From a virus, in IMG/VR virus record IMGVR_UViG_3300009428_000069, positions 1 through 24,694 of that record: DNA of 24,694 nucleotides; one strand, written 5' to 3'. The notes beneath the pieces are model-generated. The model was not told the DNA's origin, made no database searches, and saw only the letters and a list, made by a program, of their open reading frames with translations. Position 1 is the stretch's first letter; each line of letters opens with the position of its first letter. The translations under genes and the position numbers were made by a program. This document shows, one piece after another, positions 1 to 23,682 of the stretch.

Positions 1-3000
1 CTAGGTGTAATAGCATTTACGTTTGCTCCAGGATTGTTTGCGTCTACATAATTAGGATCGTCTATTCTTACTCCGTTTTTATAAAGGTTATATACAATGC
101 CTGTTGCAAGAGGAGCACTTAATGTTACTGCAATTGTAGAACCATCTGCTGTAAATACTTCATCTTCAAACGTGTTATCATACGCATCCCATGTATCAGT
201 ATACCAGCCTGTTGTATCAAATCCGCTTGGACCGTCGAAATCAAAGCTTCGTACTTCAACACCACCATAGTCAATGCCTGACATTAGCTGTGCTAAATCA
301 TTACCATACATACCTGCTATTGGTTTATACGCAAGCTGAGTTCTGTCTTCTGCATTTAACATACTTAATGGTATGTTGTAGTCTATTTTTACAACTGCAT
401 TTAGTTTTGGCGGTGTTACAAATGTAATTTTACCTTGCTCTCTAGTATAAGACTTTGTAATATCTTCAATATTTGCAAAAGTATATTTGCTACGTAGTTG
501 TAATATACTATCAACATAAACACTTACTTTAGTAATGTTAAGATCCATTGGCCATTCTAGGAAGAATCTTGTTTCAAATCCTGTACCAGCAGATGTTTGT
601 GACTTAACTAAAGAACTAAACGTAAATTGTCCACTAGTTCTGTCAAACTTAATTTTAACACTTGGACTTCTTACTAATCCTTTACCTAATACTGCTGTTG
701 CCTTTGTTGCTGTACTTCCAGATACTTGTGATCCTGAAATAGTAACAGTAGGCGCACTAGTATATCCACTGCCTGGATTAGTTACTTTAATTTTAGTAAC
801 TTTTCCGTAGCCTAAATATGCTTTAGCAATTGCGCCGCTTCCGCCACCGCCTGATAATAATACTGTTGGTTCGTATGTATATCCTGTACCAGCATCGCCA
901 ATTTTAATTTCAGTTATTTGGTATCCGTGATTGTCTTTCCAATTTTTACGTGGATATGCTGTTGTGTTAAGATTTTGATCAGTAATTATGTTATCAACAA
1001 TCTTTGCTCCGCTTGCATTAATTTTCTTAGTCGGCTTATCATACTGTGGTTGTAAATCAAAGTCACTAATAGAACTATTAGTAGGTTCTAGACCAGCATA
1101 GTCACTAACAAATTCTCTTATCTTTGTTGAGTAAGGTTTAAACTCTTCAACAAAGTCTTGATAGCTTGCTAAGTTATCATTATTAAATGTTAAGTCCTGT
1201 GTACTTAACGTGCCTCTGTTATGCTTAGATTTTACAAAACTAGTTTTAAACATCCAATCCACTGATTGCTGTTCTGACATTACATATCGCAACGATGCCA
1301 TAAACAATTGGTTATATTCTACAGATAAATTACCTATAAAAATATTATCTCTAACTGCTTCTAGTATAGTTCTTAATTCAATGCTTGGATTATTGTCATA
1401 AAAATTACTATCAAAGCTGCGGTTATCAAATCCTACAGTATTCTTTGAATAGTCGTACAATGTATCTTTAAATTGTATTGTTCCGTTTTGACGTCCAATT
1501 GTGTTATAGTTAACTGTATAATCTTCAGTATCTACTGCGTCTATTTTTTGCAATAATAGCCAGCCGCCAGTTCCAACTGTTTCAATTTTTACAATATGCC
1601 CAATACTATTATCTAAACTTGGTAGTTGATATGATCCAGCAATAGTGTCGTTAATATTTGTGAACTGATTGAATCCAGCAGCATACCAATCAATATAGTT
1701 CCAATATAATCCTGTGTTATAGCTTTGTAGTTTTCTTCTATACCAAGTAGTACCGTTCCAGGAATATAATGCCCATTTGTTTTGGATAGTTTCGTCTGCT
1801 GTTACTAGAACCGTTACTGGTCTAACTGTAATACTAGTACTACTATTATATAATTTTCCACTGTTGACAATAGTAACTGATGTTATTTGACCTAACGTAT
1901 TAATAGCAATATCAAATTCAGCATCAGTGCCAGTACCGTTAATCTTAAAAGTAGGCGCAACTTTATAGCCGCGGCCTGTGTTAGTAATATCAACTCTAGC
2001 AATTCTGCCGTTTGTAATTACCGGTGTTAATACAGCAGAAGTAAGTTTATTTGTACTTACATATGTAAGTTCTGCTACTGTGTTTGTCGTTAAATCATAT
2101 TGCTTTGACAATAATGTAGGCGTTGTATCTTTCTTTGTTAACGCTGTAAGATTATATTCATCAACTATAAGATGTTCAGATAATCTTAAATTTATTCTTT
2201 CAATAGTTTGCTTTAGTGCTTCAAACCTATTAACAAACATACTTTGTCTTGGACGATTTTGTACACCGTATCGGTTTCTTATTGTTATAGCAGGATCTGG
2301 AACAGTTCTATTATTGCTGTCAAATCCAACTAAGCTGTCAAACCACTTACGCTCAATATCAGCATCTGGCTTACTTGTGCTTAATCCATCTGATATTAAT
2401 TTGTACTGGCTATGCAAGTTTTGTGTTTTCTTAGGACCTGTTGAGTATTTAATATTCAACACTAAGTCATCGTTATCAACAAATGTGTCAAAGTTATTAA
2501 GAACAAATTTATTTTTAGAAAGTAAACTTAGGAATGGATATCCTTGCGTTCTTGGATTTTCAATTAATGCTGCAATATCACTAATACTTAATCTTCTATT
2601 TTCTATTATAGGAACAGTAACTTTGTTAACAACCCAGAAGTAATATAAATTACTAAACGTTTGACTAACTTCGTCATAAATTATTTTAGTCGAAAACTTA
2701 TTATCACCAAATAAACTTGTTCCACTAATACTTGCCGAAAGTCCATTAGGTGTATCAGCTACACTATCCCAAATACTCGGAATAAAAGTACTTTCAACCC
2801 ATTCAAATATATCTATTCTTGCTCCTGGAATTAGTTTATTCCATGTATTTTTTTGGAACGTTGTTGAACCTTGGTATGCATGTGCAAACTTAGCAGCACT
2901 AATATTCCACCAAACTTGACCAACATGAGCTTCGCTCCATGCTCTATTAGGATCAACTGTGTTATCAGCAGTTGCTCCTGTGTTATATACAGCAGGATCA

Positions 3001-6000
3001 TACGGCGTTTTAAATGTAATTTCTTGGTCAGCTGGTCCTGCAATTTTACCTTGTATTGGATCAATGTAATCAATATAACTTACAATGCTATTTTTTCGTT
3101 TATCATATAAAAATGCTCCGCGAATATTATCTACGTCAACTGGTGTTATTCCTTCATTAACAACACTCCATGCAAATGTAGTTGCATTTTTTCTAAAGTC
3201 AACTAATGCACCCTTATATCCAGCAAAGTCTGTATTGCCTGCGCCACTAACTGCACCTACAAGCTGATCTGGCATGCCGATATAAACATGATTGCCATTA
3301 GTGTAAATATTTTCTCCGAATGTAGTCTGTGTTAGCGGATATGTAAATTGCTCTGAGAATATTAAAGTACTCTTAATGGCCTCATAAACGTACACAGCGC
3401 CTTTATCAAGTCTAACATTTCTAAAGTTTGTAAACAAGTTATCAAACGTAGTTGCTGTATCGTCTGTTGCAGTAAATGCACTAATGTCAAACGTAGTTGG
3501 TATTGTTTGATCGCCATTTAAACTAGATACAACTAAGTTATCAGTTCCGTATGATAGTCCAAAGCCAAAGCCTTCGCTTTCTTCGTTGTTTGGCGGTGTA
3601 AGTGTTTGAGTTAATGTAAATGTGCCTGCTGTTTGTGTGTATACATAAACAATACCTTGATTAGCTTTAGAAGTGTCGTTTAGCATTGAGCTTACTGCAA
3701 TTTGTGTTCCTTCTGGATTTAAACTAACTTTGTCAGCCCAGCCTGTTACATCATTAGGAGCAGATATTGTTTGTGATAACGTATACTTATTGCCCGACAG
3801 GCGGTATATTACAAGTTGCATAGTTGCTGTACTTGTAGTATCAACTTGTTGACTTGTTACTACAAGTACTTGTGCATCTGAGCTAACATCAAAGCTTTTA
3901 CTAAACTCTACTATGTTTTCCATAGGATCAAATACTGATTCATTATAAAATGCATTTGCTGTTAAGTTTGGCAAGTACCCTAAGTAATCAATATTAGTAC
4001 TTACAGCAGCCCATGATGCGTTTGCAGCACTAGGTACTGCTGCGTTAACTGCTATGTTAGTTTTTGCTTCCCATAATGTATTGTTTTGTATAACTACACT
4101 GCCTAATATATAAGAGTATGTATTATCAAATGCGCCTCTGTAGTTAGAATCTTTTGCTTGTTTCCAACTAATATTACTCCAATAAATTGGATCAACAATA
4201 ACATTTTGTGTTGCAGTAGTTGCTTTAAGGCAAATATAATAGCCGTCTTTGTATATTACAATATCGCCTACTGCAAAGGCTGTTAATTTATACTCGCCTT
4301 TGAAGCTGTCAGTTGCTTTAGTACCATGCTGGAATATTTCAATTGAACCAGGATCTACTCTACGTCCAAAGGAAACATCATCTCCTAAAGATGCAACACT
4401 ATCACTTCCAACTAGCAGTGTATAGTAATTACCTGATTGTACTATTGCAACCTGAGATCCAAAGTTTCGGTTTGCTGCTCTATGTTCTGATATTATTGTA
4501 TTATCATATCTATAGCTGCCGTTTGCTAATCTTCTATAAATTGCATACGCGCCTTCGTCATCAAACGTCCCTGCTGTTCCTAATGCATCTGCTGGAATAT
4601 TATAAATTTGTGTATAATCTTTGTTTAAGCTAAATGGTGGGTTTGCTAATCGTTGTATTCCAGATTCTACTGTTTCATCAAAGAACCAATATTCTTCGTC
4701 AACAATTGTTGGTGTTGCAGAAATATCAAAGTTACTTGAATGTTGTAACACAATCAACTTACCAATTAGTGCAGTACCTAATGCAATACTATTGTTTGAA
4801 TCTGTTACTGTTCCAATAGTACGCGAAACATCACTAGCTCCACGTAGTGTAGTGTTTGCTCTACGTCGAATTCCAAAACGTCCAATATTTGATAGTTCAG
4901 ACCATGTTCCTGTGGAGCCGTCTGTGTTTGCAACAATTTTTAGATATACTTTAACTTGAGTAAAGTTACGTTGTATAAACATAACTTCTGCACTACTGGT
5001 TGTAATATTAGTTACTGCTAGGCCACCTTGGCCATCGCGTGGTGTTTGGATGTCTTCAATTATATCACCAACCCGAGGTTCAAATGCAAATCCTTGGAAG
5101 TCAAATTCAGTTAGTTTAAAGTCAATATAGCCGTCCCACAAGTCAACAACTGTTTGTGCTTTGTTTAGTATTTCGTATGTAAGTCCTGCTCCTGCAAGAT
5201 CAATTACTCTGTCGCTAAGATTGTATAATCTAAATTGCTGTACATCAGCTATAGATAAGTTATCTGTAAATGACTTAGCTCCACGTACTACAAATGTATT
5301 ACTAGGAAGATCTCTCTCAACTCCGTCAGCTCCGTCAGCTAATGCTGTGTCGCCTCTATAAGATAATTGAGCAATATAACTAGCCTGGTTTTTCTTAGTT
5401 ACATATACACCAATTGTTCCAACTGTGTTTTGGATATTAGAGTATACATTTAATGCGCGGGCTGAGCCTGCTACTTTAATATCAGCATAAACTAAACCAC
5501 GACCTTGGTCGTAATACGTAGCGTCATTTGAATAATTAAATCCTGTGTTAACATACCAATAGCCGCCAACTGCTGTACTTGTAGCAACTGTTGCTGCTTC
5601 TGTATATGCTCCTACTAAGTCTTGGGAGTTTATATATAATGTTCCTGTTAGTGGAAATATACCATTTGTTCCTGTGACGTATAACACTGCGCTATCAAGC
5701 CTAGTGCCTACATAAAATATTGTTCCTGAACCTGTGTCAGTTGTTATTATGTCTCCAACTTGTGGTAATGTAACAAACGTTTGTAAGAAGAATATGTGAT
5801 CAATTTTTTGGACAATTGTATGCTCTGCATCAAGAAATTCTGGTGTTATTTCTGAAACTGCTCCATTAAATGGAAGATAGTTATCTAATGTAGGGAACGC
5901 ATAACTGCGTCGGTTCCAAGCTAACCGTAATAAGTCTCCTGCTTTTGAACCAATGTACATATCTTTTGGAGCACGTACTAACAAGTGATTAGTTGTGTTA

Positions 6001-9000
6001 TTTGCTAATCCTGGATCTCCAGCAACTAATAAGTTTAGTGTTGCGCCGTTATCCGCTGTTTGGCTAGCAATGTTTACATACGTATCAAACGTACTAAATG
6101 TTTGGTTACCAATCTGTGGAAGGATTTCTCTGTTAGCTTTCCACAAACTTTCTCTAAAACGCACAATGTCACTCTTAACATATGATGCATCACTTTGGAA
6201 GTCAAATGTGCTTGCTCCAGTAGCTGCTGATGTCTTGTATGCTAACCTAGTCTTAACTCTGCTTGCTTGCGGAACACCTACAATAAGATATTCGCCGTCT
6301 GGTGATACTGCAATACTTTTGCCAAAGTCTGCATTAGTCTTACTATATAATTCGTCATTTTCAAGTAAAATTTCTTGATCTAATAGTAATTCTGACTGTT
6401 CTCTAGTTCTTCTATATAATGATACTTTGCCGTTTATATCATTAGGGGATGATACAAAAACGCTATTATTATTTTGTGTTACTGCAACACTATCACTAAA
6501 TCCTTGATCAGTACTATCGTATAATGCTGGATTTGTAATTGTATGCTGATTTAAGTAAACAGGCTTATTTTCTAATACTGCCCACTCAGTTCCGTATGTA
6601 TCAATCCATAACTTTTGTTTTGCATAAAGTTCTTGATTAATACTTGCATTAAGCGAGCTAACATTTGGTATTCTAACTGATCTTAATTTAGATAGTGTAA
6701 ACTCTTTATTTTCAAAGTCTAGTATTTCGTTAGTTATCGGAACTTGAATTTGTAGTTTATCAAGGTTGATATTTTCTACTTCATATATACCGTTAAGTGC
6801 AAACGCATTTGCTCCGCGAACACTAATATAGCCGCCTACTTCTACAACCTGGCTTGCCCATTTATCTACTGTTAATTCTACTAGTTGTAGGCCAGTAGTA
6901 GTAGATACATTAACTATGGATGTTAATGCTGATGTTACATTTGCTTTAGTTGATATTAGCTGTAGTACTGTCCAGTCGATAGGATTAACTATTCCGCCTT
7001 GAGTAGTTCCAGTATCAGTTACCCATATTGTAGCGCCTAATGAAATTTGGTTACTATCAATAGATGCTAAATCTACTATATTGTTAACAACAAAATCAAC
7101 ACTATCTTCATTTACGTATCCAGCAGTTCTAATATATTCACTAGACGATGCCTTTGTAGGGAAAGGTGCATGTGTGTAATCTGCTGGCTTGTCGTACACT
7201 TCATTTGGAAGTATTCTATAAATTTTATCAAAGTTTGTTGGCGGTGTTGATGTGATCAACTCAACAGCTTGTGGAGACTCTTGCATTTTATCTTGCTTTA
7301 AGTTATACTCTACTTGCTGTATATCGTCAACTGCACCATAACGCCCAACTTGTATTGCCCATTCTTCGTAGAACTCTAAGTTATCAGCTGTATTACCTAG
7401 AGCATTAAACAGTTTAGTAAACACATTCATTGTGCCTTTATCTGCAATTGCACCTCTATAAAATTTAAACTGACTTACATCGTCTTGAATAATATTAGCA
7501 AGATATTGACGCTTTTGGTATCCAATCAAGTGCTGGGCCATTTTTTGCTGTTCAGTATCAAAGCTATCTGAATCTAAATCATAAAAGTCAGTAAACTGTG
7601 TAATTTTGTAATCAAAGTTAGTCATTAACTGTGACTCGGGTTTTTCGCTTAACTTATACCAGTTAGCTGAATTAAAGTTTTGCGAGCCGACTGCATTAAC
7701 TGTAGCTACATAATAATACTGCTTGTATTTTACAATGTCGCCAATCTTGTAATCTTTCCATTGCGCCCAATCTGTATACGAAGCATCGTCATACACAAAT
7801 CCAGGAATATTTAAGCCGCCATTCCAGCCATCGGATCTGTAACCATTAACACGGATTCGTTCTTGTCTATAACCTGTACTAGGATTATAAATTGCATCAT
7901 TAAAGTCTGTTTTATTATCTAACAGTACAACATGCTCCTTTTGTACCAAAGGAAGTGATACATGGTATAACCCTTCGTCGGTGCCATCTACTTGGATACC
8001 AAAACTATTTTGATCTCTTAATAAACTATTAAACTCTGAGCTTAGGAATTGGCCGTCTGCTTTGAATATATTATAACCGTAAAACTCGTCTTTAATATTA
8101 TCAACTACATAAAAATCTCTCTTAAACTCTAATAAGTTTGCGCCCGGGCTTAATGCTATTAGCGCACTCTTTGCCCATCCTTGTGTTGTCCAGAATAAAA
8201 ACTCTTTTGCAGAATTTGACCAGTTTTCAACTTTATTAGATCCTTTAACAACATTTTCAAAGCTAAATCCTATTTTTGACTGTCGTTGACTATAACCTAA
8301 AATAAAGTCAACTACATCTTGAGCTGTTGTAAGTCTTGCTCCGTATTGTAATATTTTAAGCTCGCCTAAGTCAAAATCTCTTTTAAACTCTGCTGTTACT
8401 CCCCCAGCAAGTGGTAATGCTGGTAACCTAATAATATCAGTAAGGTCAAATGTTACGCCTGAAGTAAAAGAATTAATAACTCTATGGTAAGCACTATTAT
8501 GCAGAATTACTTCGCCGGTGGTATAAGCAGTATTACTTGACCATTCATTTACTGCTTCTGCTATGCCGCCAACTGTTACTACTGCTTTAGTAGCACCTAT
8601 ATGCGGTTCATAATATTCAAAGTACGGTTTTTCTAGATTATATCCTCGTATAACATACCCTAGTTCAGCACGTTCTATAATCATACCACTATAAATTGCA
8701 AGTTCAATAGGGCTACTAGTGTTTAGAAATACTTGGTAGTTTTCCTGAGGAATAAATATTCCGTTTTGTGTAAGTTCTTGAGTCGGTGATCTACTATCAA
8801 GTATTAAATTAAACTTTTGCTTGCTTGTAAAGCCTGCAACTTTTATGCCCAGTTGATTAGTAATAGTTGCCAACTCGTTTTGATAGCCAGTGTATACTGT
8901 TAATATATCACTTGCTACTAAGTTGTAAATGTAGTTTACTAATCCAGCTGTAATAGTTCGTGTTACTGATTTAATAGTATTTGGTAATTTTAAATCTTTA

Positions 9001-12000
9001 ATAACAATAGGCTTATTTGTTTCTTTATCAACCCATTGGTTTGCTAAGTTTTTAGTGATTCTAGAAATGTCAAAACCTAAACTCATTGTTTTAGCAGGCT
9101 TGTTTAATAGCATAGCTGTTAATACTGCAAAAGGATATTCCGAGTTGCGGCGCCATGCATTTTCAATTGGAGCATAATCTCCAAACTTGAAATTCTGCGT
9201 AGCACTTTGGATTTGGAAGTTTTTAGCATATCGACTGTCTAGCGGTGATAATAATTTGCCTGTACTGCCAACTGGAATAAAGTTAGTTAACCCAGTACGT
9301 GCATATTTAAGATCAATCCTAGTGTTTTTAGGATCAGCAATGCGTCCCTTTTCTAAGTCTCTCCAAAGTACTAAGTTATCACCTGTATAAGGAGCAGGAC
9401 CATAAACTGTATTCCACCAACTCGGCTTAGTTGTTAGACCAAGCATTTCCCAAGGATGTGTATGTGGGCGATCTGTATCAAATGCTCTTATATATACACC
9501 TCTCCAAAATCCTGGATTTATATTACCGTCTGGTGAAGTAGTATCTTGATAGTTAAATGTCCAATTGTTGGTTCTATCGTAAAAGTTATTTTCAGTAAAA
9601 GTAGTATTATTTAAATTTTGCTGTATCCATTGTTGGAAGTCACCAAGCATTGTGTTATCAATTTCAGCTTTTGTAAATTCATTAATTCTAAATTCGCCAC
9701 CGATAAACGCATTAACATCTAATCTATCAGTTGAATATTCTGCTTTAATATTATTAAAGATTCTTTTTTCTAATTCTAGTATTAATTCGTCTCTAAAATC
9801 TTTGTATGCTTTAATGTAGCTGCCGTCATGTCCTCTAATAAATGCAACGCCTACTGGGTAATCAACTATTTCAATATTATCATTGCCGCCAAGAGTTGCT
9901 CCTGTAGCTGGCATATAAAATATTTTATTCATTCCGCTAAAAGTATAAGACTTAGACAATGCGCCTGCGCCTGCTGCAATTTTAGTAGTGTATACTGGAT
10001 GGAACCAACCTCTAGTATCAGTTGCACTATCTTCGCCGTAAATTTTAAACGGACCTGTTGTTTCTGGTTCAGTTGCAAGTGGTGTATCGTCTATTGTTAG
10101 TTCTGGATAGTACTTAGGATACAATCCTAATTTGGAAGGTGTTGGAGCAATAAAGCTTCCGTCAGTTAATGCATACTCATGTATTTCAAGTAAATCATTT
10201 TCTTTTTGGTTTGCACTTACTGATACATATCCAGCTGTATTAAAGTTGTAATCTTTAATGTGTGTTAATTGTACGCTGTTTAAATAAACAGTTACACTTG
10301 CTGTACTAAGTTCAGTTAAGTTAAAAGCGGCAGTAATCGGATATTCTGTTGTTCTAGCATCTAATACAGTATATGATAGTTTGTTAGAAGTTCCAGATGG
10401 AAGCATATCAGAGAAGTAAAACGGCTGTGATGTTAACTTGTCGTTGTTAATTTCTTTTAATATTTTATCTACGTGTCCTTTAACTGGACCATCATACCCT
10501 AAGTTTAAAGCAGTATCTAAAAATGTCTTTTTAAACCTTGAATATTCTCTCTTAGAATACTTTAATGCTTTAACAATATTATAACTTTTATTAGTTATAT
10601 GGTATAGCGGTAAGTTGATTGAACCACTGTGCTTAACAAAGCGTTTTCCAAAACGATCTACATCACCTAAATCTCGCAAGTTACTCGAGCCAAGATATGC
10701 TCCGCTATAGTTTGGAATATCTTCTAGCATACTATCAACATGGTCAACTACTTCGCCCAAAGTAAACTGGTTAACATCATCGTTTAACGGGTTGCGTTCT
10801 AAATTATACGGAAACTCGTAGTACCCTTTAGAATTTTTTATAGCTTTAGAATCTGTTTTAATTTTAACAATGTCGCCTACTTTTAAATCTTTAGTAAATA
10901 TAATAGATGCATTAGCAGCAGTTTTGTTAATTGTATATGATGCTATTTGTAATTTATTATTAACAAATACTATTACTTTTAAATCAGTTAAACTACTAGA
11001 CTGTTTATACACATCAATTTCAAATTTATTAGTTTGCAAATCAGTTGCAGCATATTCAGATATAACATACTGCTTACTTTCATGAGGTATGTTACTAAAT
11101 CCGTTTACATAAGAAAATGCAGTAAGTGATTTATATTTCTTTAAGTATCCACTATTAATTTTATGTGTTATTAAGTCTGTATCTGTTTGATACTGAAAAG
11201 TATCATTTAACAAGTTAAAGTCAAAAACAATATCGCCCGAGTTGTTTAACGTCTTATAGTCAAGAGCAAAACCTAACTCTTTGTCAACTGTGCCTGTGCC
11301 TGTAGCATAAGAAAATATCTCAGTTCCAGTAAAACTAGTTGAACCATAGTAAGTAATATCACTAAAACTATTACCGTTTGTATCAAACACTTCAAACCTT
11401 GGAGTTTGGTTACGATTTGCTTTTTCTTGTGCAGCAGTCCATTTTAACTTATGGTAGTGGTAACTTTTACCTGCATTTTTTACGCCTTGTGTAACTAGTA
11501 CAGTTTCAAGGTCTATAGGTAATGTGTCAGTAGCTTCAATTAAACTAATTTGTCTAACATTTGAAATTGTAACAAACTTAACGTTATATATTTTGCCGCT
11601 AACTTTTCTATCAGTATCTGCTGTAAACAAAATACGCATATTATCTGAAAGTGCTTTACCGTCAATGTTATAACCTATTTGTCCTTCAATAGTACTAAAC
11701 ACATCCTTAGTAAATGTATCAATTAAGTCAACGTCTTGTTTAGCATACGCTCCGAAGTTGTTTAACTTTAGTCCTGCTTCAAACTCTATAATTGGTCTTA
11801 ACGCGCGGGCTGACTCATCAACGTCTCTTGGTAATCCGTTAAGTTCAAAACTTTTTAAAATTACATCTTTGTGGTGCCATTTATTGTAACGACTCCACGC
11901 ATTTCTATCTGGTGTACTTCTATTAATAACAATATAATCTTTATTAGTTGCGTATGCAGTTGCATCGGAAAACGGTAGTATATCAAAGTTATCAACATCA

Positions 12001-13112
12001 AATGCTACACTCTTACTATCACTATATGCAGCTGGAATAATTAAGTTTTGGTCTTTAATCAATATAATCTTTTCGCCAACACCTTCAACATACCAATCGT
12101 TAGTTTCATATGTAGCAGGTTGTACATCGCCTTGGAACTTAATTTTCATTCCGTTTGACAATGCAACACCGTTTGCACTAGTATAAGTTTTCTTGCCTAC
12201 AATATCTGCTGTAACATCAAGGAATGCATTTTCTTCAATATCGTAAACTCTAATAGAGCTACTTGTATCAATAGCATTTTTACTAATATAATATAATACA
12301 TCAGGAGCGTTTGACGGAATAGTAAATTCAATAGCACCGTTTTCAATATAACTAAGGGTTGACAAATTACCGTCTTTATCAAACGTTGTTATTCCATCAG
12401 TATAAAGTGTACTAACGTTAGTATCGACATTTGCGCCTGGAGTAAACGTTCTACTAAGGGCAATTGACATTGGATGTCCAGGTGTGTTTATTTCAAACCG
12501 GTATGATTGTCCGCGATAAAGTTTTAACGTTGGATTAACAGTTAATCCATCATTGAATACATAAGCAATGTTGTCGCCTTGATCCTGTGTAGTAACTGTG
12601 TACGTGCTAACAACATCTCTACTCTGTCCTCTAACTTGGATACTAAGCGGACCGTTAGGTAGCCAGTAATATTCACGGAAGTTTACAAACTTATCCCAGT
12701 CAATATTAGGATTCCAAGCATATGTTTCTTGATTGTTTAATCGACTATGGTTATCTGTGTTTGCTCCAAATACATTTAACTGTCCTATATAATCATTATA
12801 GTCTTTATAAAAGGTTACATTATCATATTGGTCTTTAATAACTGTCGCTGGCTCTAGCTGATAGTTAGATCTATCATTAGTTACATCGTTAACATAGTTG
12901 TCTGTAGTTTTGTATGCTTTGGCTGTTTTTCTGCCGTAATAACCATTTACTTTTTCAGCGACGCCAGGTTGTATAAGTTGGTCAAGTGTTCCTTGTAAGA
13001 ACTTTTTATTTGCTTGTGTTCTAAAGAACTTGGGCAAAAAATCACTTGAAGTAATTTTATTATTCTGTCCTGGAACAGGTAGTGCGCTTTCGTTTTGATC
13101 GTTCTTAGCCAT
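1..13112 (-). CDS. Giant baseplate/host-binding structural protein, at least 4370 residues (gp7 position, 3' end outside window)
   Basis: One frame is open from the ATG at 13112 to the left edge, 4370 codons, with no stop seen when I translated nearly all of it. The N-terminus (FLPKFFRTQANKKFLQGTLD, QLIQPGVAEKVNGYYGRKTA) is typical of large structural proteins of marine T4-like phages. Further parts are a cupredoxin-like domain (about 189-281), a HPWEMLGLTTKPSWW motif (about 1220), FG-GAP/beta-propeller-like motifs between about 2198 and 3281, five carbohydrate-binding-like modules, and GxGYxxxPT repeats (3700-3730 and 4065-4129). T4 carries gp7 (1032 residues), the wedge initiator, right after gp6. 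I infer a gp7-like start fused to extra host-contact domains. The start is fixed by a GGAGG 12 bases upstream and the TAATG overlap with gp6. There is no frameshift or codon-use break that I can see. Confidence 0.9.
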   Translation of the reverse strand, partial: MAKNDQNESALPVPGQNNKITSSDFLPKFFRTQANKKFLQGTLDQLIQPGVAEKVNGYYGRKTAKAYKTTDNYVNDVTNDRSNYQLEPATVIKDQYDNVTFYKDYNDYIGQLNVFGANTDNHSRLNNQETYAWNPNIDWDKFVNFREYYWLPNGPLSIQVRGQSRDVVSTYTVTTQDQGDNIAYVFNDGLTVNPTLKLYRGQSYRFEINTPGHPMSIALSRTFTPGANVDTNVSTLYTDGITTFDKDGNLSTLSYIENGAIEFTIPSNAPDVLYYISKNAIDTSSSIRVYDIEENAFLDVTADIVGKKTYTSANGVALSNGMKIKFQGDVQPATYETNDWYVEGVGEKIILIKDQNLIIPAAYSDSKSVAFDVDNFDILPFSDATAYATNKDYIVINRSTPDRNAWSRYNKWHHKDVILKSFELNGLPRDVDESARALRPIIEFEAGLKLNNFGAYAKQDVDLIDTFTKDVFSTIEGQIGYNIDGKALSDNMRILFTADTDRKVSGKIYNVKFVTISNVRQISLIEATDTLPIDLETVLVTQGVKNAGKSYHYHKLKWTAAQEKANRNQTPRFEVFDTNGNSFSDITYYGSTSFTGTEIFSYATGTGTVDKELGFALDYKTLNNSGDIVFDFNLLNDTFQYQTDTDLITHKINSGYLKKYKSLTAFSYVNGFSNIPHESKQYVISEYAATDLQTNKFEIDVYKQSSSLTDLKVIVFVNNKLQIASYTINKTAANASIIFTKDLKVGDIVKIKTDSKAIKNSKGYYEFPYNLERNPLNDDVNQFTLGEVVDHVDSMLEDIPNYSGAYLGSSNLRDLGDVDRFGKRFVKHSGSINLPLYHITNKSYNIVKALKYSKREYSRFKKTFLDTALNLGYDGPVKGHVDKILKEINNDKLTSQPFYFSDMLPSGTSNKLSYTVLDARTTEYPITAAFNLTELSTASVTVYLNSVQLTHIKDYNFNTAGYVSVSANQKENDLLEIHEYALTDGSFIAPTPSKLGLYPKYYPELTIDDTPLATEPETTGPFKIYGEDSATDTRGWFHPVYTTKIAAGAGALSKSYTFSGMNKIFYMPATGATLGGNDNIEIVDYPVGVAFIRGHDGSYIKAYKDFRDELILELEKRIFNNIKAEYSTDRLDVNAFIGGEFRINEFTKAEIDNTMLGDFQQWIQQNLNNTTFTENNFYDRTNNWTFNYQDTTSPDGNINPGFWRGVYIRAFDTDRPHTHPWEMLGLTTKPSWWNTVYGPAPYTGDNLVLWRDLEKGRIADPKNTRIDLKYARTGLTNFIPVGSTGKLLSPLDSRYAKNFQIQSATQNFKFGDYAPIENAWRRNSEYPFAVLTAMLLNKPAKTMSLGFDISRITKNLANQWVDKETNKPIVIKDLKLPNTIKSVTRTITAGLVNYIYNLVASDILTVYTGYQNELATITNQLGIKVAGFTSKQKFNLILDSRSPTQELTQNGIFIPQENYQVFLNTSSPIELAIYSGMIIERAELGYVIRGYNLEKPYFEYYEPHIGATKAVVTVGGIAEAVNEWSSNTAYTTGEVILHNSAYHRVINSFTSGVTFDLTDIIRLPALPLAGGVTAEFKRDFDLGELKILQYGARLTTAQDVVDFILGYSQRQSKIGFSFENVVKGSNKVENWSNSAKEFLFWTTQGWAKSALIALSPGANLLEFKRDFYVVDNIKDEFYGYNIFKADGQFLSSEFNSLLRDQNSFGIQVDGTDEGLYHVSLPLVQKEHVVLLDNKTDFNDAIYNPSTGYRQERIRVNGYRSDGWNGGLNIPGFVYDDASYTDWAQWKDYKIGDIVKYKQYYYVATVNAVGSQNFNSANWYKLSEKPESQLMTNFDYKITQFTDFYDLDSDSFDTEQQKMAQHLIGYQKRQYLANIIQDDVSQFKFYRGAIADKGTMNVFTKLFNALGNTADNLEFYEEWAIQVGRYGAVDDIQQVEYNLKQDKMQESPQAVELITSTPPTNFDKIYRILPNEVYDKPADYTHAPFPTKASSSEYIRTAGYVNEDSVDFVVNNIVDLASIDSNQISLGATIWVTDTGTTQGGIVNPIDWTVLQLISTKANVTSALTSIVNVSTTTGLQLVELTVDKWASQVVEVGGYISVRGANAFALNGIYEVENINLDKLQIQVPITNEILDFENKEFTLSKLRSVRIPNVSSLNASINQELYAKQKLWIDTYGTEWAVLENKPVYLNQHTITNPALYDSTDQGFSDSVAVTQNNNSVFVSSPNDINGKVSLYRRTREQSELLLDQEILLENDELYSKTNADFGKSIAVSPDGEYLIVGVPQASRVKTRLAYKTSAATGASTFDFQSDASYVKSDIVRFRESLWKANREILPQIGNQTFSTFDTYVNIASQTADNGATLNLLVAGDPGLANNTTNHLLVRAPKDMYIGSKAGDLLRLAWNRRSYAFPTLDNYLPFNGAVSEITPEFLDAEHTIVQKIDHIFFLQTFVTLPQVGDIITTDTGSGTIFYVGTRLDSAVLYVTGTNGIFPLTGTLYINSQDLVGAYTEAATVATSTAVGGYWYVNTGFNYSNDATYYDQGRGLVYADIKVAGSARALNVYSNIQNTVGTIGVYVTKKNQASYIAQLSYRGDTALADGADGVERDLPSNTFVVRGAKSFTDNLSIADVQQFRLYNLSDRVIDLAGAGLTYEILNKAQTVVDLWDGYIDFKLTEFDFQGFAFEPRVGDIIEDIQTPRDGQGGLAVTNITTSSAEVMFIQRNFTQVKVYLKIVANTDGSTGTWSELSNIGRFGIRRRANTTLRGASDVSRTIGTVTDSNNSIALGTALIGKLIVLQHSSNFDISATPTIVDEEYWFFDETVESGIQRLANPPFSLNKDYTQIYNIPADALGTAGTFDDEGAYAIYRRLANGSYRYDNTIISEHRAANRNFGSQVAIVQSGNYYTLLVGSDSVASLGDDVSFGRRVDPGSIEIFQHGTKATDSFKGEYKLTAFAVGDIVIYKDGYYICLKATTATQNVIVDPIYWSNISWKQAKDSNYRGAFDNTYSYILGSVVIQNNTLWEAKTNIAVNAAVPSAANASWAAVSTNIDYLGYLPNLTANAFYNESVFDPMENIVEFSKSFDVSSDAQVLVVTSQQVDTTSTATMQLVIYRLSGNKYTLSQTISAPNDVTGWADKVSLNPEGTQIAVSSMLNDTSKANQGIVYVYTQTAGTFTLTQTLTPPNNEESEGFGFGLSYGTDNLVVSSLNGDQTIPTTFDISAFTATDDTATTFDNLFTNFRNVRLDKGAVYVYEAIKSTLIFSEQFTYPLTQTTFGENIYTNGNHVYIGMPDQLVGAVSGAGNTDFAGYKGALVDFRKNATTFAWSVVNEGITPVDVDNIRGAFLYDKRKNSIVSYIDYIDPIQGKIAGPADQEITFKTPYDPAVYNTGATADNTVDPNRAWSEAHVGQVWWNISAAKFAHAYQGSTTFQKNTWNKLIPGARIDIFEWVESTFIPSIWDSVADTPNGLSASISGTSLFGDNKFSTKIIYDEVSQTFSNLYYFWVVNKVTVPIIENRRLSISDIAALIENPRTQGYPFLSLLSKNKFVLNNFDTFVDNDDLVLNIKYSTGPKKTQNLHSQYKLISDGLSTSKPDADIERKWFDSLVGFDSNNRTVPDPAITIRNRYGVQNRPRQSMFVNRFEALKQTIERINLRLSEHLIVDEYNLTALTKKDTTPTLLSKQYDLTTNTVAELTYVSTNKLTSAVLTPVITNGRIARVDITNTGRGYKVAPTFKINGTGTDAEFDIAINTLGQITSVTIVNSGKLYNSSTSITVRPVTVLVTADETIQNKWALYSWNGTTWYRRKLQSYNTGLYWNYIDWYAAGFNQFTNINDTIAGSYQLPSLDNSIGHIVKIETVGTGGWLLLQKIDAVDTEDYTVNYNTIGRQNGTIQFKDTLYDYSKNTVGFDNRSFDSNFYDNNPSIELRTILEAVRDNIFIGNLSVEYNQLFMASLRYVMSEQQSVDWMFKTSFVKSKHNRGTLSTQDLTFNNDNLASYQDFVEEFKPYSTKIREFVSDYAGLEPTNSSISDFDLQPQYDKPTKKINASGAKIVDNIITDQNLNTTAYPRKNWKDNHGYQITEIKIGDAGTGYTYEPTVLLSGGGGSGAIAKAYLGYGKVTKIKVTNPGSGYTSAPTVTISGSQVSGSTATKATAVLGKGLVRSPSVKIKFDRTSGQFTFSSLVKSQTSAGTGFETRFFLEWPMDLNITKVSVYVDSILQLRSKYTFANIEDITKSYTREQGKITFVTPPKLNAVVKIDYNIPLSMLNAEDRTQLAYKPIAGMYGNDLAQLMSGIDYGGVEVRSFDFDGPSGFDTTGWYTDTWDAYDNTFEDEVFTADGSTIAVTLSAPLATGIVYNLYKNGVRIDDPNYVDANNPGANVNAITP
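729..920 (-). repeat. GxGYxxxPT repeat units 2 and 3 (tandem) in the giant protein
   Basis: Residues about 4065-4129 hold two consecutive units, ITEIKIGDAGTGYTYEPTVL and VTKIKVTNPGSGYTSAPTVT, each followed by a Gly/Ser-rich loop and an alanine-rich strand. The units are alike in protein sequence but differ at the DNA level, so they are old duplications. Similar GSGYTSAPTVTI units occur in other marine phage structural proteins in my knowledge. Confidence 0.65.
1924..2015 (-). repeat. GxGYxxxPT repeat unit 1 in the giant protein
   Basis: Residues about 3700-3730 read RIARVDITNTGRGYKVAPTF and then KINGTG. It is the same type of unit as the tandem pair at 729-920: a strand, a (T/N/D)xGxGY turn, xxxPT, a second strand and a Gly-rich loop. 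It probably forms a small beta-structured connector. Confidence 0.6.
3996..4130 (-). other. Carbohydrate-binding-like module E in the giant protein
   Basis: Residues about 2995-3039 read YSYILGSVVIQNNTLWEAKT and end with ASWAAVS. The Y..GSVV....LWEA core and closing Trp parallel module D, with which it forms a tandem pair separated by about 15 residues. Confidence 0.45.
4173..4291 (-). other. Carbohydrate-binding-like module D in the giant protein
   Basis: Residues about 2941-2980 read FAVGDIVIYKDGYYICLKAT and then DPIYWSN. GDIVIY.DGYY followed by a closing aromatic is a strong CBM5/12-like pattern. It lies between propeller-like motifs 3 and 4 and directly precedes module E. Confidence 0.5.
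6115..6195 (-). other. Carbohydrate-binding-like module C in the giant protein
   Basis: Residues about 2307-2333 read SYVKSDIVRFRESLWKANRE. The Y..SDIVR.....W.A core matches modules A and B, but the leading Trp and the Gly before Asp are missing, so this is the weakest of the five. It follows propeller-like motif 2 directly. Confidence 0.35.
6262..6520 (-). other. FG-GAP/beta-propeller-like motifs 1 and 2 in the giant protein
   Basis: Two adjacent units (residues about 2198-2230 and 2259-2284) read FSDSVAVTQNNNSVFVSSP and FGKSIAVSPDGEYLIVGVP. Each has an FG/FS start, a first strand, an N/DG turn and a second strand ending in a small-residue-Pro loop. This is the FG-GAP/integrin-alpha-like propeller blade pattern. 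Such propellers mediate protein or glycan contacts. The following blades are about 600 residues further on. Confidence 0.55.
7644..7779 (-). other. Carbohydrate-binding-like module B in the giant protein
   Basis: Residues about 1779-1823 read WAQWKDYKIGDIVKYKQYYY, then a loop and FNSANWYKL. This has the full W.....Y..GD.V.Y...YY ... W.. layout of CBM5/12-type modules and is one of the two best matches of the five. Confidence 0.5.
8469..8559 (-). other. Carbohydrate-binding-like module A in the giant protein
   Basis: Residues about 1519-1548 read WSSNTAYTTGEVILHNSAYH. The W....Y..G..V....... Y spacing is that of CBM5/12 (chitin-binding type 3) modules, in which exposed aromatic residues stack on sugars. 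The module is short, so the call rests on this motif alone. Confidence 0.5.
12270..12548 (-). other. Cupredoxin-like domain in the giant protein, copper ligands apparently lost
   Basis: Residues about 189-281 of the giant protein read LYRGQSYRFEINTPGHPMSI, then TDGITTFDKDGNLS, then EFTIPSNAPDVLYYISKN. The order RG.tY.F ... HPmsI ... tdGit ... ftvP.naP..lyY is a beta-sandwich pattern common in marine phage and bacterial surface proteins. In copper-binding members the last strand reads like YYxCxxHxxM. Here it reads YYISKN, so the Cys, His and Met ligands are missing and only the fold is likely kept. Its role would then be structural. Fold assignment is pattern-based. Confidence 0.5.
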
Positions 13113-16100
13113 TAGTAACTATAGCCTCCGCCTGAGTTGCCTGCGTTTCCGCTTGATGATCCAGCGTTGGACAAACCGCCGCCTGTTGTAGTTGTAGTTG
13201 CTGTTGTAGTTGATGCACTGCTTGTAATTCCTGCTGTTGAGGCTGTTGCCACTGTGTTAAGTACTGTACCACTGGCTTGTAAATTTGTTGCAGTGATCTG
13301 ATCTATTGTTTCAATATCAGTCACTTTAGCTGCACTTGCAAATATTTCATCTGGCTCACTCTTTATTTCAAATAGGCTACCAAACGATTGTGTTGTTTGG
13401 CGCGGTACTATTAGTATACTTACCAGTTTTGGAGACAGCTGGTTTATGATATAGGCACTTAGTTCTTGGAAGTAAAAAGTTTCTCCAAAGTCCCAGTTTT
13501 CAATATCAAAGAATTTATTAATTGCTTCAATAATGTCTGATTTAAGTTCATTATCATTAGTAACTATGTTTGCATTTTTTACAATTTTAAATTTAACTTG
13601 TAAATCAGGTGTTGCTTTGTCACCAAATAGTATTTTATACTTTACAGGATGATAAATTATTTCATCACTAATACTTTTTATTTTATTAATTTCAGTACCG
13701 TAGCTTCTAAACAATTCATCATTACTTGGTGGCTTAGGCTGTGTTAAAAGTGCTCCGCTAATAAATTGTTTTACTTGGGAATCGTACGACTTTGATAAAA
13801 CATATGTATCAATAATATTACTTGCACTTGGATCTATTCTATAGCCACTGTCTGCAACGTGTACATAATGGAATTTTAAATCTGCTCTACCAAAGTATGC
13901 TTTATAATCTGCATTAATTGTTGTATTGTTTAATACCTTATTCAGCTTTCTAAATATACCCTCGTCAATTAAGTAAAATATTTGTCCTTCAAGACGTGTA
14001 CTATATGGAGCAATAACTACTTCATTTTGTACTACAATTATTTCAGCAGTTGTATTTGCAAAATATTTGTAGTCTTCTACGCCGTCAGTTGTTGTGTATT
14101 TCTTTTGGAATATAAGTTTGTCTTTTGTAAGAATAGTTGTATCTTCTTCACCTACTATTTGCTCAAAAATATCAGGATCGTCAACAACACCGTCATCGTC
14201 TAAATCAATAAACTGAATTTGTATTTTACGGCTATCTAAATATCCTTCTGTATCTCTATATGCATCTGTAATAGTCCAATTAAAGTCTCTTGTAAATGGA
14301 GTTAATGCGCCAGGCTTACGATTAATATTTAATACATCAATTTTGTCTCTAACAATTTGTCCAGTTGATGGATCGTATATTTTGTCAGCACTATCAAAGA
14401 AGAATCTAATTTCTTCTGAACTTTCCATTACATATCTTAAATTTCGGTATGTAATTGTGTATTTTTCGCCATCTGTTTTGAAGTATAACATCCAGCTTGC
14501 ATCAAGATTTTCTGCTGTTATATCTCCAGCCTTACCTGTAGCAAACGCGCCGATTGTATTAATGTCTTCTGCTAGTACAAGTTTCCATTGCCTATCATAT
14601 TGGTCATAACGTAATGCAAAATCTTTGTACTCAAATGCTTGATCAATTAATTGTGTTTTTATGTCATTAATTAATACCCTAGAATAGTTAGGGATAACTT
14701 GTTCTAATAATGCTCCAGTTGGAATATAATCGCTTAGTGCAATAGGTGCTAGTCCGTCTACGGAAATATCAGTGCCGTCGCCAGTAATAGATATTACTTT
14801 GGACCATTTATAAGTTGTTTTACCTAAATGATCACTTGCACCATCGGTCATTAAAGTGCCGTCTGGCATAAAGTGCTTACCTGCTGGTGAAACAAACTTT
14901 AGCATTGTTCCTGCTTCTAGTAAACGTAAACTGTTTGCAGTAAATGTACCTACTGTATAAGGATTTGAATCAATGTCCTCTATCAGTCCTAATGTTTGGT
15001 TTGTGCTAGTACTAGATTGTTTCCAAGAAGCATTAAGATCACTAACAATAATTTTTGGATATTTTGAAAGGTAAAAGTTCTGAGTGTTGATGTTTTTTAA
15101 AACTTTTTCAATAGTATTATATATAACACCTTCAATGTCTGTTTGTGTAGCAAACGTAAATGATTGCTTTTCAACAAATTCTTCTTTATAAAGTATGCCG
15201 TCATCTGCAAACAAACTTGTATTTGAATACTTGCCGCTGGCATCTTTTAAGTCAAAGAATCGACTTATACCACTTGAAATTCTATTTGAACTTTTAGTTT
15301 TAATAATATCTTGACTAATTGCTAACGGTCCAATATTATAATCTTCACCTGTAATTAATCTATTTTGCGTGTAATAAGTTGCAGGTGCATTTTGCTTAAT
15401 TTCTGCATTAGTTTCTGATGCTGTGCCGTTAGACACAGTATAGTTTAATTTAAGTCCAATAGTAAGTGTTTGTGCTGTGCCGTTTCTTGACTGATACGGT
15501 ATATCAATACTTACTGTATTAATTGCACTAGGTGTTATTACACTTCTTACGTTACTACTAGATCTATAATATGCCCTAAAGTCGCCTGCTGGTAAATTAC
15601 CAAATACTCCGTCACTAAACACTAAGTTAATTCTATCACCGATACGTGTAGTTACTGCAAATACATCTCTAGTTTTATTAAACAAACTATTGTAGATAAC
15701 ATTGTTACCTTCAGTGGAATCAATCTTTGTCCACTGGTTACTTTCAAAGCCGCTGCTGTTTACTGAGAACACCCAAATATCACTATCGTTAATATTTTCA
15801 GAATCAATTTGTATTGCTTGATTTGGTGTTGGATTAGTTACACTAAAGTTTCCTGTTTCAAGTTTACCTTGACGGAAGTGCATAAAGAATCCTGTGTTAG
15901 AACTGCCTGCACCTTGACCGTCATCACGGAATAAAAATGCAGGACTATTACCCGGAAGTGGTGCTTCTTCAAATATTTCGTCTGTTGACATATCAGTACT
16001 TACAATTTCAAATCCTGTGCTTACACCTTCAATACGCTTATTAAAAGGATATATTGCTGTGCCAGTATTTGTAGCATTTATACGATACTTTTGTGTTTGT

Positions 16101-16645
16101 ACATCTGCAATTAGTGCAGACTTTAATGGGCTGCCGATTGAATTAGCTATTGGTAATGCTGAATTCATAATTTTAACAAACTGTTCAAAATAGTTTGTGT
16201 TAGTTTGGTCATTCCATTTAACAGTAATTCCTGACATATTTAAGCCATTACTGTCTAATAAATTTTCTGTTGTTTTAATTGTGTCAAATTTAAGCAAGCC
16301 GTTAGCTGCTTGATTTCTGCGAGGATTGTAAGATAGCATACGTGCTAGACGTAATACACTTTCTCTGCGCTCTGCTGTTTCAAGGAAGTTTTCACGAGCG
16401 TTTAAATCAATACGGAATGATAGATTTTGCCCAAGGAAAGCAATCATATCAATTAGCGCAAGATATTCACTTGACTCAATGTAATCGTTAAAATCTTCTG
16501 GATAGTTTTGACGCAAGTAGTTAATCATTGTGCGTCTTAGATTATCAAAATCGTAGCTTTGGAAATCAGCGTTTCTAAAACTTTGGTATATTCTTTTCCA
16601 GTCCTCAGCTACTAAAAGCCTCGACTGTCGATCATTTGCAGACAT
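13112..16645 (-). CDS. 6: Baseplate wedge subunit gp6 (baseplate J-like), enlarged
   Basis: This 1177-residue protein starts with a signature N-terminus: a QSYDFDNLRRTMINYLRQNY helix, YLALIDMIAFLGQNLSFRID, then NARENFLETAERRESVLRLA and MLSYNPRRNQAANG. This is the conserved helical start of gp6 in T4-like phages, where two gp6 chains form the ring that ties the wedges together around the hub. The C-terminal part (about 1020-1110: SDIIEAINKFFDIENWDFGE, FYFQELSAYIINQLSPKLVS) is the typical baseplate-J end. T4 gp6 has 660 residues, so this protein has several hundred extra residues between and after these parts, and ends with a Ser/Thr/Gly-rich tail (about 1137-1177). AAGGA lies 7 bases before the ATG in a 58-base gap after gp25. 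The stop shares one base with the start of the giant gene. Confidence 0.93.
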   Translation of the reverse strand: MSANDRQSRLLVAEDWKRIYQSFRNADFQSYDFDNLRRTMINYLRQNYPEDFNDYIESSEYLALIDMIAFLGQNLSFRIDLNARENFLETAERRESVLRLARMLSYNPRRNQAANGLLKFDTIKTTENLLDSNGLNMSGITVKWNDQTNTNYFEQFVKIMNSALPIANSIGSPLKSALIADVQTQKYRINATNTGTAIYPFNKRIEGVSTGFEIVSTDMSTDEIFEEAPLPGNSPAFLFRDDGQGAGSSNTGFFMHFRQGKLETGNFSVTNPTPNQAIQIDSENINDSDIWVFSVNSSGFESNQWTKIDSTEGNNVIYNSLFNKTRDVFAVTTRIGDRINLVFSDGVFGNLPAGDFRAYYRSSSNVRSVITPSAINTVSIDIPYQSRNGTAQTLTIGLKLNYTVSNGTASETNAEIKQNAPATYYTQNRLITGEDYNIGPLAISQDIIKTKSSNRISSGISRFFDLKDASGKYSNTSLFADDGILYKEEFVEKQSFTFATQTDIEGVIYNTIEKVLKNINTQNFYLSKYPKIIVSDLNASWKQSSTSTNQTLGLIEDIDSNPYTVGTFTANSLRLLEAGTMLKFVSPAGKHFMPDGTLMTDGASDHLGKTTYKWSKVISITGDGTDISVDGLAPIALSDYIPTGALLEQVIPNYSRVLINDIKTQLIDQAFEYKDFALRYDQYDRQWKLVLAEDINTIGAFATGKAGDITAENLDASWMLYFKTDGEKYTITYRNLRYVMESSEEIRFFFDSADKIYDPSTGQIVRDKIDVLNINRKPGALTPFTRDFNWTITDAYRDTEGYLDSRKIQIQFIDLDDDGVVDDPDIFEQIVGEEDTTILTKDKLIFQKKYTTTDGVEDYKYFANTTAEIIVVQNEVVIAPYSTRLEGQIFYLIDEGIFRKLNKVLNNTTINADYKAYFGRADLKFHYVHVADSGYRIDPSASNIIDTYVLSKSYDSQVKQFISGALLTQPKPPSNDELFRSYGTEINKIKSISDEIIYHPVKYKILFGDKATPDLQVKFKIVKNANIVTNDNELKSDIIEAINKFFDIENWDFGETFYFQELSAYIINQLSPKLVSILIVPRQTTQSFGSLFEIKSEPDEIFASAAKVTDIETIDQITATNLQASGTVLNTVATASTAGITSSASTTTATTTTTGGGLSNAGSSSGNAGNSGGGYSY
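13125..13129 (-). promoter_or_regulatory. Ribosome binding site of the giant gene
   Basis: GGAGG on the minus strand, 12 bases before the ATG at 13112, lies within the codons for the GGYSY end of gp6. The spacing is a little long, but the TAATG overlap would let terminating ribosomes reinitiate, so gp6 and the giant protein are probably made in linked amounts. Confidence 0.55.
13185..13212 (-). repeat. Simple triplet repeat encoding the poly-Thr tail of gp6
   Basis: A run of GTT/GTA/GCT triplets on the plus strand encodes the Thr-rich TTTATTTTT part of the gp6 tail (residues about 1145-1154). It is followed by a Gly/Ser/Asn-rich end. Triplet slippage would alter length without shifting the frame. 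Confidence 0.6.
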
Positions 16646-16703: not shown

Positions 16704-17144
16704 TTAAGCTTGTAGTAGACCGTTGTCTTTGTCAAATTTAAAGCGTAGTTGGTCAGTTACACCAAAGGGCAAAAACGTTATAGCGCAATCAATCTGTATT
16801 CCTTGCTCATAAGTATCAATTTCAATAGAACTTGCTTGTATTCTAGGATCATAATTAACAATACGGGTAACATCATCTATAATTGCTTCTTGAACTTCAA
16901 CTGTAAACGGTTCGTATAATATATCCCATATAATAGTACCGAATGTAGGATCGCTTAACTTTTCAGTTTGGCGTATATGAAAGTGATTTATCAAATCTTG
17001 CTTAATAAGTTCAAAGTCATATATGCTAAAACTTTTAGTATTTGCAACTGTAGAGAATCCTCTGTATGTTCTACCGGACGTTGCAGTCTGTTTGGAGTTA
17101 GATATTGTAACTCTTTTGTATAGATTTTTTTCTAATTGGCTCAT
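16704..17144 (-). CDS. 25: Baseplate wedge subunit gp25 (TssE family)
   Basis: This 146-residue protein is close in size to T4 gp25 (132 residues). Residues 30-125 carry the family core: a GFST opening, SIYDFELIKQDLINHFHIRQ helix, then EKLSDPTFGTIIWDILYEP and a long helix EVQEAIIDDVTRIVNYDPRI. The EKL..P.FG....L.EP block corresponds to the conserved gp25/TssE loop that contacts the inner baseplate and the first sheath ring. gp25 links the wedge core (gp6 and gp7) to the sheath and helps start sheath assembly. The gene sits between gp5 and gp6. An AGGG (17155-17158) lies 10 bases before the ATG; the 16-base spacer to the gp5-like gene leaves no room for a leader from its own promoter. Confidence 0.95.
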   Translation of the reverse strand: MSQLEKNLYKRVTISNSKQTATSGRTYRGFSTVANTKSFSIYDFELIKQDLINHFHIRQTEKLSDPTFGTIIWDILYEPFTVEVQEAIIDDVTRIVNYDPRIQASSIEIDTYEQGIQIDCAITFLPFGVTDQLRFKFDKDNGLLQA

Positions 17145-19644: not shown

Positions 19645-20634
19645 TTATGGTGATGTGAATAACTTCTTACCACTGTTAAAATCATACCTATCAAATCCAG
19701 TACGCATTGGTTTATATACATACACGCCTTCGGTTATTGGGGCTTCTAGAGAAGGGTTACCGTTTACTGGGTCAACTGTTGTATCTTGAGTTATAAGTTC
19801 AGGCTTAGTTGTTACTACTGCTGCCGGGTTTGCTGTTCCGTCAGATACGTTTGGATTTACATTTCCGCGCTCTGCTGCTCGTTTTCTTGCTTCTGCTATT
19901 ACGTCATCTGGGCCTTTAATATTAGGCAATGAGCCTGCTCCTTTAGCAACTTCGTTTGCAGGCGGAATATTTGGTATACACGGTTCAAGCTTGAGTTCAG
20001 CCTTAGTATCAGGTTCAGCCCCTTGTGCCATAAATCTTACCTGTTCTGGAGTAGCTGTGTCGCCAACTTTAAGATTGTTAACTTGGTCAGCTATACCTAC
20101 TTTTACTTCGCTACTAGTTACAGGACCTACTGCTTTAGGATCAGTTACTACTGTAGTTTCTACACTATTTCCTGTAACAGCACTAGTAGTGCTTGTTACT
20201 TCTGTAACCGGCCTTGCATGGTTTACTGCTGGATCAGGTACGTACAAAGGAACGCCATACCAGGTGTCATCAAGTAATACCGAGTTTGGTAGTGGCCATC
20301 CTGGGCCGCTCTTTAATACTTCAAGATATTTTTCATAACTTCCATCACCTGTTCGCTTTAGTTCAAAAAGCTCAATTGATAATGGCGCTAGTCGGTAAAA
20401 TTCCCAGTCTGGTACAACAACGTAATAATGTTTATTATTTGGATATGGTACGGCAGAGTCTTGATTGTCTATTATTATAATGACTCGCGGTTTGCCATCT
20501 TCATAATCATACGCATGTCGATAGTTATCATAGGCTATAAACCCGTCTGCGGTTCTCCAGCCTGCGTCAGGATTTGAAGGAACTGCATTTGATTCTTCTT
20601 CAGTTTCGCCAGTTAGTTCGTCTTCGTCTATCAT
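19645..20634 (-). CDS. Unrecognised baseplate-operon protein, acidic, Pro/Thr-rich
   Basis: I do not recognise this 329-residue protein. It begins with a very acidic stretch (MIDEDELTGETEEES). A compact-looking part follows, with YDNYRHAYDYEDGKPRVIII, then HYYVVVPDWEFYRLAP and SGPGWPLPNSVLLDDTWYGV (about residues 30-130). From about residue 140 to 300 it is rich in Thr, Val, Pro and Asn and looks extended or disordered, including a short AEARKRAAERG helix. It ends TGFDRYDFNSGKKLFTSP. There is no signal peptide or membrane segment. Its ATG shares one base with the stop of the 1015-residue gene, with AAAGGA (20643-20648) 8 bases upstream, and the spike gene follows 18 bases after its stop. Being translated between hub and spike genes suggests a virion part or assembly factor for the hub-spike complex; this is positional inference only. 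Confidence 0.75.
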   Translation of the reverse strand: MIDEDELTGETEEESNAVPSNPDAGWRTADGFIAYDNYRHAYDYEDGKPRVIIIIDNQDSAVPYPNNKHYYVVVPDWEFYRLAPLSIELFELKRTGDGSYEKYLEVLKSGPGWPLPNSVLLDDTWYGVPLYVPDPAVNHARPVTEVTSTTSAVTGNSVETTVVTDPKAVGPVTSSEVKVGIADQVNNLKVGDTATPEQVRFMAQGAEPDTKAELKLEPCIPNIPPANEVAKGAGSLPNIKGPDDVIAEARKRAAERGNVNPNVSDGTANPAAVVTTKPELITQDTTVDPVNGNPSLEAPITEGVYVYKPMRTGFDRYDFNSGKKLFTSP

Positions 20635-23681: not shown

Positions 23682-23682
23682 A

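Follow-up and report, generated by a model that had tools for sequence, protein, structure and literature searches.

The stretch of viral DNA analysed here (IMG/VR virus record IMGVR_UViG_3300009428_000069, hereafter the window) covers its entire public record, which is 24,694 bases long, and carries genes for several baseplate proteins on the minus strand. One encodes a gp5-like baseplate hub protein (17161..19626, identified with PHROG and Pfam), which ends in a VgrG3-like domain (PF21277, E 4e-27) in place of the T4-type lysozyme domain. The next two encode baseplate wedge subunits: gp25 (16704..17144; Pfam GPW_gp25 over cut-off) and the 1177-aa gp6 (13112..16645; PHROG 10646 with E 1.6e-295, PHROG 219 and tblastn). 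On the other side of the hub gene are a 329-aa gene (19645-20634, minus strand) with no PHROG or Pfam match and a 1039-aa gene (20634-23753, minus strand) that matches PHROG 11190. The listed TTG start of the latter is probably too early, and translation more likely begins at an ATG 24 codons further on (MAAYNLNAAVKST...).

The rest of the window is taken up by a single giant reading frame (3..13112, minus strand). It starts with an ATG that overlaps the gp6 stop codon by one base (TAATG), continues for 4370 stop-free codons and is still open at the window edge; since the window is the whole record, it is the contig end that truncates the frame. An earlier sequence-only reading had described this frame as open from 13112 to the edge and as lying directly after gp6, in the place that gp7 (1032 aa) occupies in T4. 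The open frame, its position directly after gp6 and the length of T4 gp7 all agree with that description.

To find the end of the gene, we scanned IMG/VR twice, fetched relatives from both gene ends and joined the two overlapping loci of each contig. This gave 22 relatives on longer contigs that carry the whole gene, with products of 5091-5343 aa that are all closed by a stop codon. All 22 are colinear with the entire frame in the window and 51-87% identical to it. The closest relative is 87% identical, and the closest three are each 5106 aa long, so about 737 codons are missing beyond the window edge and the 4370 residues seen here are the first part of a protein of about 5106 residues.

Several observations confirm this frame as a genuine, uninterrupted gene with a product of about 5,100 aa. 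Given the base composition of the window, a run of 4370 codons without a stop would arise by chance with a probability of about 1e-152, and the two other forward frames have 310 and 661 stops across the gene. The pattern of GC content by codon position, with low GC in third positions, is uniform from end to end and the same as in gp6. Comparison with three relatives yields a dN/dS of 0.13-0.15 (for the closest relative, dS is 0.59 and dN 0.075), and the ratio is well below 1 in each segment, although dN in residues 2051-3300 is roughly twice that of other regions. The gene is thus under purifying selection, with dN/dS about 0.13, and the earlier view that the frame reads as ordinary protein throughout is borne out. 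Internal starts, stops or frameshifts would have contradicted a single long product. However, no in-frame internal ATG, GTG or TTG in the giant frame is preceded by a Shine-Dalgarno-like site of GAGG/GGAG type, and the same unbroken frame recurs in more than 20 independent contigs as well as in isolate genomes. We therefore reject chance, on the statistics of stop-free runs and on the relatives, and with it an error of sequencing or assembly that joined several genes, for which we found nothing in favour and whose probability we regard as negligible. The one irregularity is a lone in-frame TGA (8765-8767) in the giant gene of contig L132, where the near-identical contig L130 reads AGA; it is an isolated case of polymorphism or sequencing error.

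The giant protein matches PHROG 10938, a family annotated as ‘virion structural protein’, with E 3.7e-302 in six stretches along the chain. In the reverse search, an HMM of the marine lineage to which the window belongs matched all six isolate proteins of this family, with E 1e-176 to 1e-305. We are thus nearly certain of the family assignment itself: the giant represents, in this marine lineage, the PHROG 10938 virion structural protein known from jumbo phages of the RaK2/Atu_ph07 type. In five annotated isolates the same gene lies directly after gp6, namely in Phosso (4555 aa), Atu_ph07 (gp180, 4449 aa), Paride (3857 aa), Vibrio 2.275.O (3771 aa) and 121Q (gp582, 3323 aa). The sixth copy, of 3807 aa in Salicola SCTP-2, is not beside its gp6, which is about 100 kb away from the giant genes of that phage; SCTP-2 has a second giant protein, of 3096 aa (L007, 6609-15899), just upstream of its PHROG 10938 copy. 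The isolate proteins share with the giant of the window a position after gp6 in most genomes, frames of thousands of residues and six conserved blocks in equal order, but they are shorter (3323-4555 aa, as against about 5106 aa) and are without the insert described below.

Giant genes are known to follow gp6 in other phages, 4370 codons are not an upper limit, and size alone is not new. In Sinorhizobium phage AP-J-162, a 4455-aa ‘structural protein’ (gp58) adjoins a 1198-aa wedge protein (gp57) (PMC11242549). Metagenomic UniProt entries match the N-terminal part of the giant with up to 47% identity, and the PHROGs contain families of 4179 positions (‘baseplate wedge subunit’) and of 6136 positions. 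NCBIfam holds no family for the giant, and a literature search for named giant phage genes returned nothing useful. The marine cyanophage P-RSM6 (Kyanoviridae) has an 8573-aa structural protein, CPXG_00128, in the slot after gp25 and gp6. It resembles the giant of the window in this gene order and in having a GSGYT-type repeat domain, but it is nearly twice as long and has a gp9-type connector after it, which is missing from the six isolates of RaK2/Atu type. The lineage HMM did not match P-RSM6 at E 1e-3, and tblastn found the repeat domain only. The P-RSM6 protein (L255/L258, 103907-129628) has a weak match to Baseplate_wedge (PF23786) at residues ~695-739.

We delimited the conserved parts of the chain by searching the marine-lineage profile against the six isolate proteins, which yielded six blocks in constant order. 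These are block 1 (residues 18-173, 12594..13061), which is matched in all six isolate proteins, block 2 (residues 387-909, 10386..11954), block 3 (residues 1083-1778, 7779..9866), which is the best conserved with up to 398 bits, block 4 (residues 1827-2052, 6957..7634), block 5 (residues 3315-3649, 2166..3170) and block 6 (residues 3796-4033, 1014..1727), all on the minus strand. Together they form a conserved scaffold of about 2,600 residues that is broken by an insert of about 1,260 residues. Block 4 holds an invariant motif, YL..(16-17 residues)..F..G.I..KGT, which reads YLANIIQDDVSQFKFYRGAIADKGT in the window (residues ~1850-1895; 7428-7565, minus strand) and is kept in all six isolates.

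Further modules were recognized along the scaffold, likewise on the minus strand. For the first 1000 residues, AF2 gave a low-confidence model (mean pLDDT 62) that is most similar in the PDB to sandwiches of cupredoxin type, and Foldseek relates approximately residues 165-290 (12243..12620, inferred boundaries) to rusticyanin-type folds. This part would therefore be a cupredoxin-like beta-sandwich, without recognizable copper ligands. Searches of the sequences of solved structures with the N-terminal protein, or with its alignment, returned nothing significant. Two modules resembling CBM5/12 carbohydrate-binding modules lie at residues 1524-1565 (8418..8543; Pfam CBM_5_12 at 24.2 bits, with a cut-off of 26.2) and at residues 1782-1823 (7644..7769), the latter absent from the aligned isolate proteins. 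Near the C-terminal end of the known part is a small repeat domain of GSGYT..PTV..S type (residues ~4066-4163, 624..917), which is common to many tail and neck proteins and also occurs in many wedge and fibre families. A C-terminal match to the PHROG ‘head closure Hc2’ might have indicated a role in the neck, but it rests on this widespread domain and we rejected it.

Because of its gene context, the giant could be a true orthologue of T4 gp7 that grew through fusion to gp8, gp10 and fibre modules, and the sequence-only reading had proposed that it may merge the functions of gp7, gp8, gp10 and others. The gp25-gp6-giant order would fit this explanation, as would the lack of the gp7, gp8 and gp9/10 families in giant-bearing phages: a six-frame search of six complete giant-bearing isolate genomes found no gp8, gp9/10 or gp7-helical match over cut-off, while gp53 was weakly matched in 6/6 genomes and the T4 control was positive in all four family searches. 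The KGT motif also bears a likeness, by eye, to segments of T4 gp7 and P-RSM6 that end in DFY..KG, the giant segment near residue 1892 resembling the gp7 segment ending in ..DFYSTKGIEASYKFLF. The giant itself, however, has no match to the Pfam domains of gp7 (Gp7_helical, Gp7_5th), gp8 (PF09215) or gp9/10 (PF07880), although T4 gp7 as a control matched both gp7 domains. We also compared it by hhalign with profiles of T4 gp6, gp7, gp8, gp9, gp10, gp11, gp12 and gp53, each built from the T4 protein and up to six diverse relatives. The probability was below 1% throughout with these shallow profiles (Neff about 2.5), it was 0.8% or less for gp7, and the KGT core with the isolates included also gave nothing. 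The motif was accordingly rejected as proof of gp7 ancestry, since the profile comparison is not significant. Nor did the comparison of the first ~1000 residues with gp7 that the earlier reading had suggested uncover a relation, as T4 gp7 is absent among the best 50 fold matches of the low-confidence model. We thus consider descent from gp7 unlikely. The giant shares with T4 gp7, gp8, gp9 and gp10 its place in the wedge operon and, as we infer, a role in the baseplate, but it is about five times as long as gp7, to which no sequence, profile or fold relation was detected. Since T4-type gp7, gp8 and gp9/10 went undetected in the six giant-bearing genomes, the giant may replace them without descending from them, and it holds the place of gp7 and its neighbours and probably fulfils their roles. 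Of the proposed merger, what stands is one intact gene in the gp7 slot, from a family with apparent members in virions; similarity to gp7, gp8 or gp10 does not.

The most distinctive part of the giant is the insert (residues ~2053-3314; 3171..6956, minus strand), which makes the stretch between blocks 4 and 5 about 1,260 residues long in the lineage of the window, as against about 100 in 121Q. It is predicted to contain FG-GAP propeller repeats and three CBM5/12-like modules. Seven FG-GAP-like blades were assigned, the count being partly by eye, to residues 2201-3283 (3264..6512, minus strand). Pfam FG-GAP_2 matches the insert of the window with 29.1 bits (cut-off 23) and is found in 18/19 relatives (best E 1.3e-12). 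CBM_5_12 is matched in 19/19 relatives scanned (best E 1.8e-9), and the matches of the window itself fall just below the Pfam cut-off. As the module HMMs were built from the segments that they score, E-values obtained with them are not independent. The insert model from AF2 has a mean pLDDT of 54; its best PDB matches in Foldseek are mostly beta-propellers, with low TM-scores, and include an integrin headpiece (4wk2, E 7.7e-6). When the insert alignment was compared with the sequences of solved structures nothing significant was found; such a search gave a weak match (E 0.033) to Anabaena All3316, within a CBM-like module. The likeness to FG-GAP propellers of the integrin alpha type is thus seen both in the Pfam match over cut-off and in the fold matches to integrin headpieces and other propellers. 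The predicted propeller differs from these in that it is interrupted by a segment of about 600 residues and by CBM-like modules. A tblastn search with residues 2171-3270 against 50,697 phage records, whiskered phages included, yielded no match. From its sequence, the combination of propeller and CBM-like modules appears to be a lineage-specific elaboration, unseen in the isolates compared, and most likely it is an outward-facing part of the baseplate that contacts sugars.

Such modules could also belong to a fibre, a whisker or an adsorption protein that is hung on the tail and is not a component of the wedge. Apart from the propeller repeats and carbohydrate-binding modules, this explanation could draw on matches to PHROG tail-fibre families, which arise through the small repeat domain, and on the whiskered tails of phages CBB and phAPEC6 (PMC5259590, PMC7247149). 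However, the insert, with the propeller and most CBM-like modules, is unmatched in the phage records searched, and the position after gp25 and gp6 is kept in five isolates. Furthermore, receptor-binding fibres appear to be encoded separately. Just downstream of the giant gene, the closest complete relative has two tail-fibre-like genes, of 685 and 636 aa (L090, 14635-18603); the two have a common N-terminal domain (PHROG 14394) and are perhaps paralogous fibres on one anchor. Receptor binding therefore seems not to be wholly inside the giant, which speaks against the earlier suggestion that this function may have been merged into it, and we judge a fibre or whisker protein to be improbable.

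Apparent homologues of the giant are present in virions. In phAPEC6, mass spectrometry detected gp245 (381.88 kDa), numbered beside the ‘baseplate wedge’ gp244, with 17 unique peptides and 7.6% coverage (PMC7247149), and in CBB it detected CBB_236, numbered beside the gp6-type wedge protein CBB_237, with 21 unique peptides (PMC5259590). The match of both with the giant is based on size, numbering and neighbour and not on accession. If they are homologues, the product sits in the particle, and a peptide coverage of about 7% is compatible with an intact chain or with a cut one. The giant could accordingly be a polyprotein that a phage protease cuts into several mature virion proteins, for which its extreme length might also speak. 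However, one frame of 3323-5343 aa is found in all 28 complete copies measured, and there is no direct evidence of cleavage, so that we give this possibility very little weight.

We found no structure of the giant among solved structures. RaK2/Atu-type jumbo phages have no detectable T4 gp7, gp8 or gp9/10, yet have a baseplate with gp25, gp6 and gp53-like parts, and the missing roles would most obviously fall to one giant chain. The best explanation, which we think is somewhat more probable than all others combined, is that the PHROG 10938 giant is a peripheral wedge scaffold that replaces T4 gp7-gp10 and bears outward propeller and CBM modules. Ribosomes that finish gp6 would go on to translate the giant by termination-reinitiation, and the chain would then join the wedge on gp25, gp6 and gp53. 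Its conserved blocks would form a large peripheral scaffold in place of gp7-gp10, without being their descendant, while the propeller and CBM5/12-like modules would face outward and either contact polysaccharide of the host surface or stiffen the rim of the baseplate. Weak contact with polysaccharide may then precede commitment to infection by the separately encoded fibres. On the other hand, in SCTP-2 the giant and gp6 are not neighbours, the PHROGs category of the family is ‘head and packaging’, and confidence is low in both AF2 models. With the full-length set and the block map, the universal scaffold can be told apart from surface modules specific to the lineage, so that the question becomes testable. 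A more specific idea, which we offer as a speculation and consider rather unlikely, is that the giant wedge protein of the marine lineage acquired an integrin-like seven-bladed propeller that carries carbohydrate-binding modules; at least six copies of it would make up a ring of surface-reading heads within the baseplate chain itself, and if so, polysaccharide recognition and wedge movement would reside on one polypeptide. With regard to the order of the wedge genes, we also observed that in 121Q an HNH endonuclease whose annotation links it to group I introns (L006, 11619-12383) lies between gp25 and gp6.
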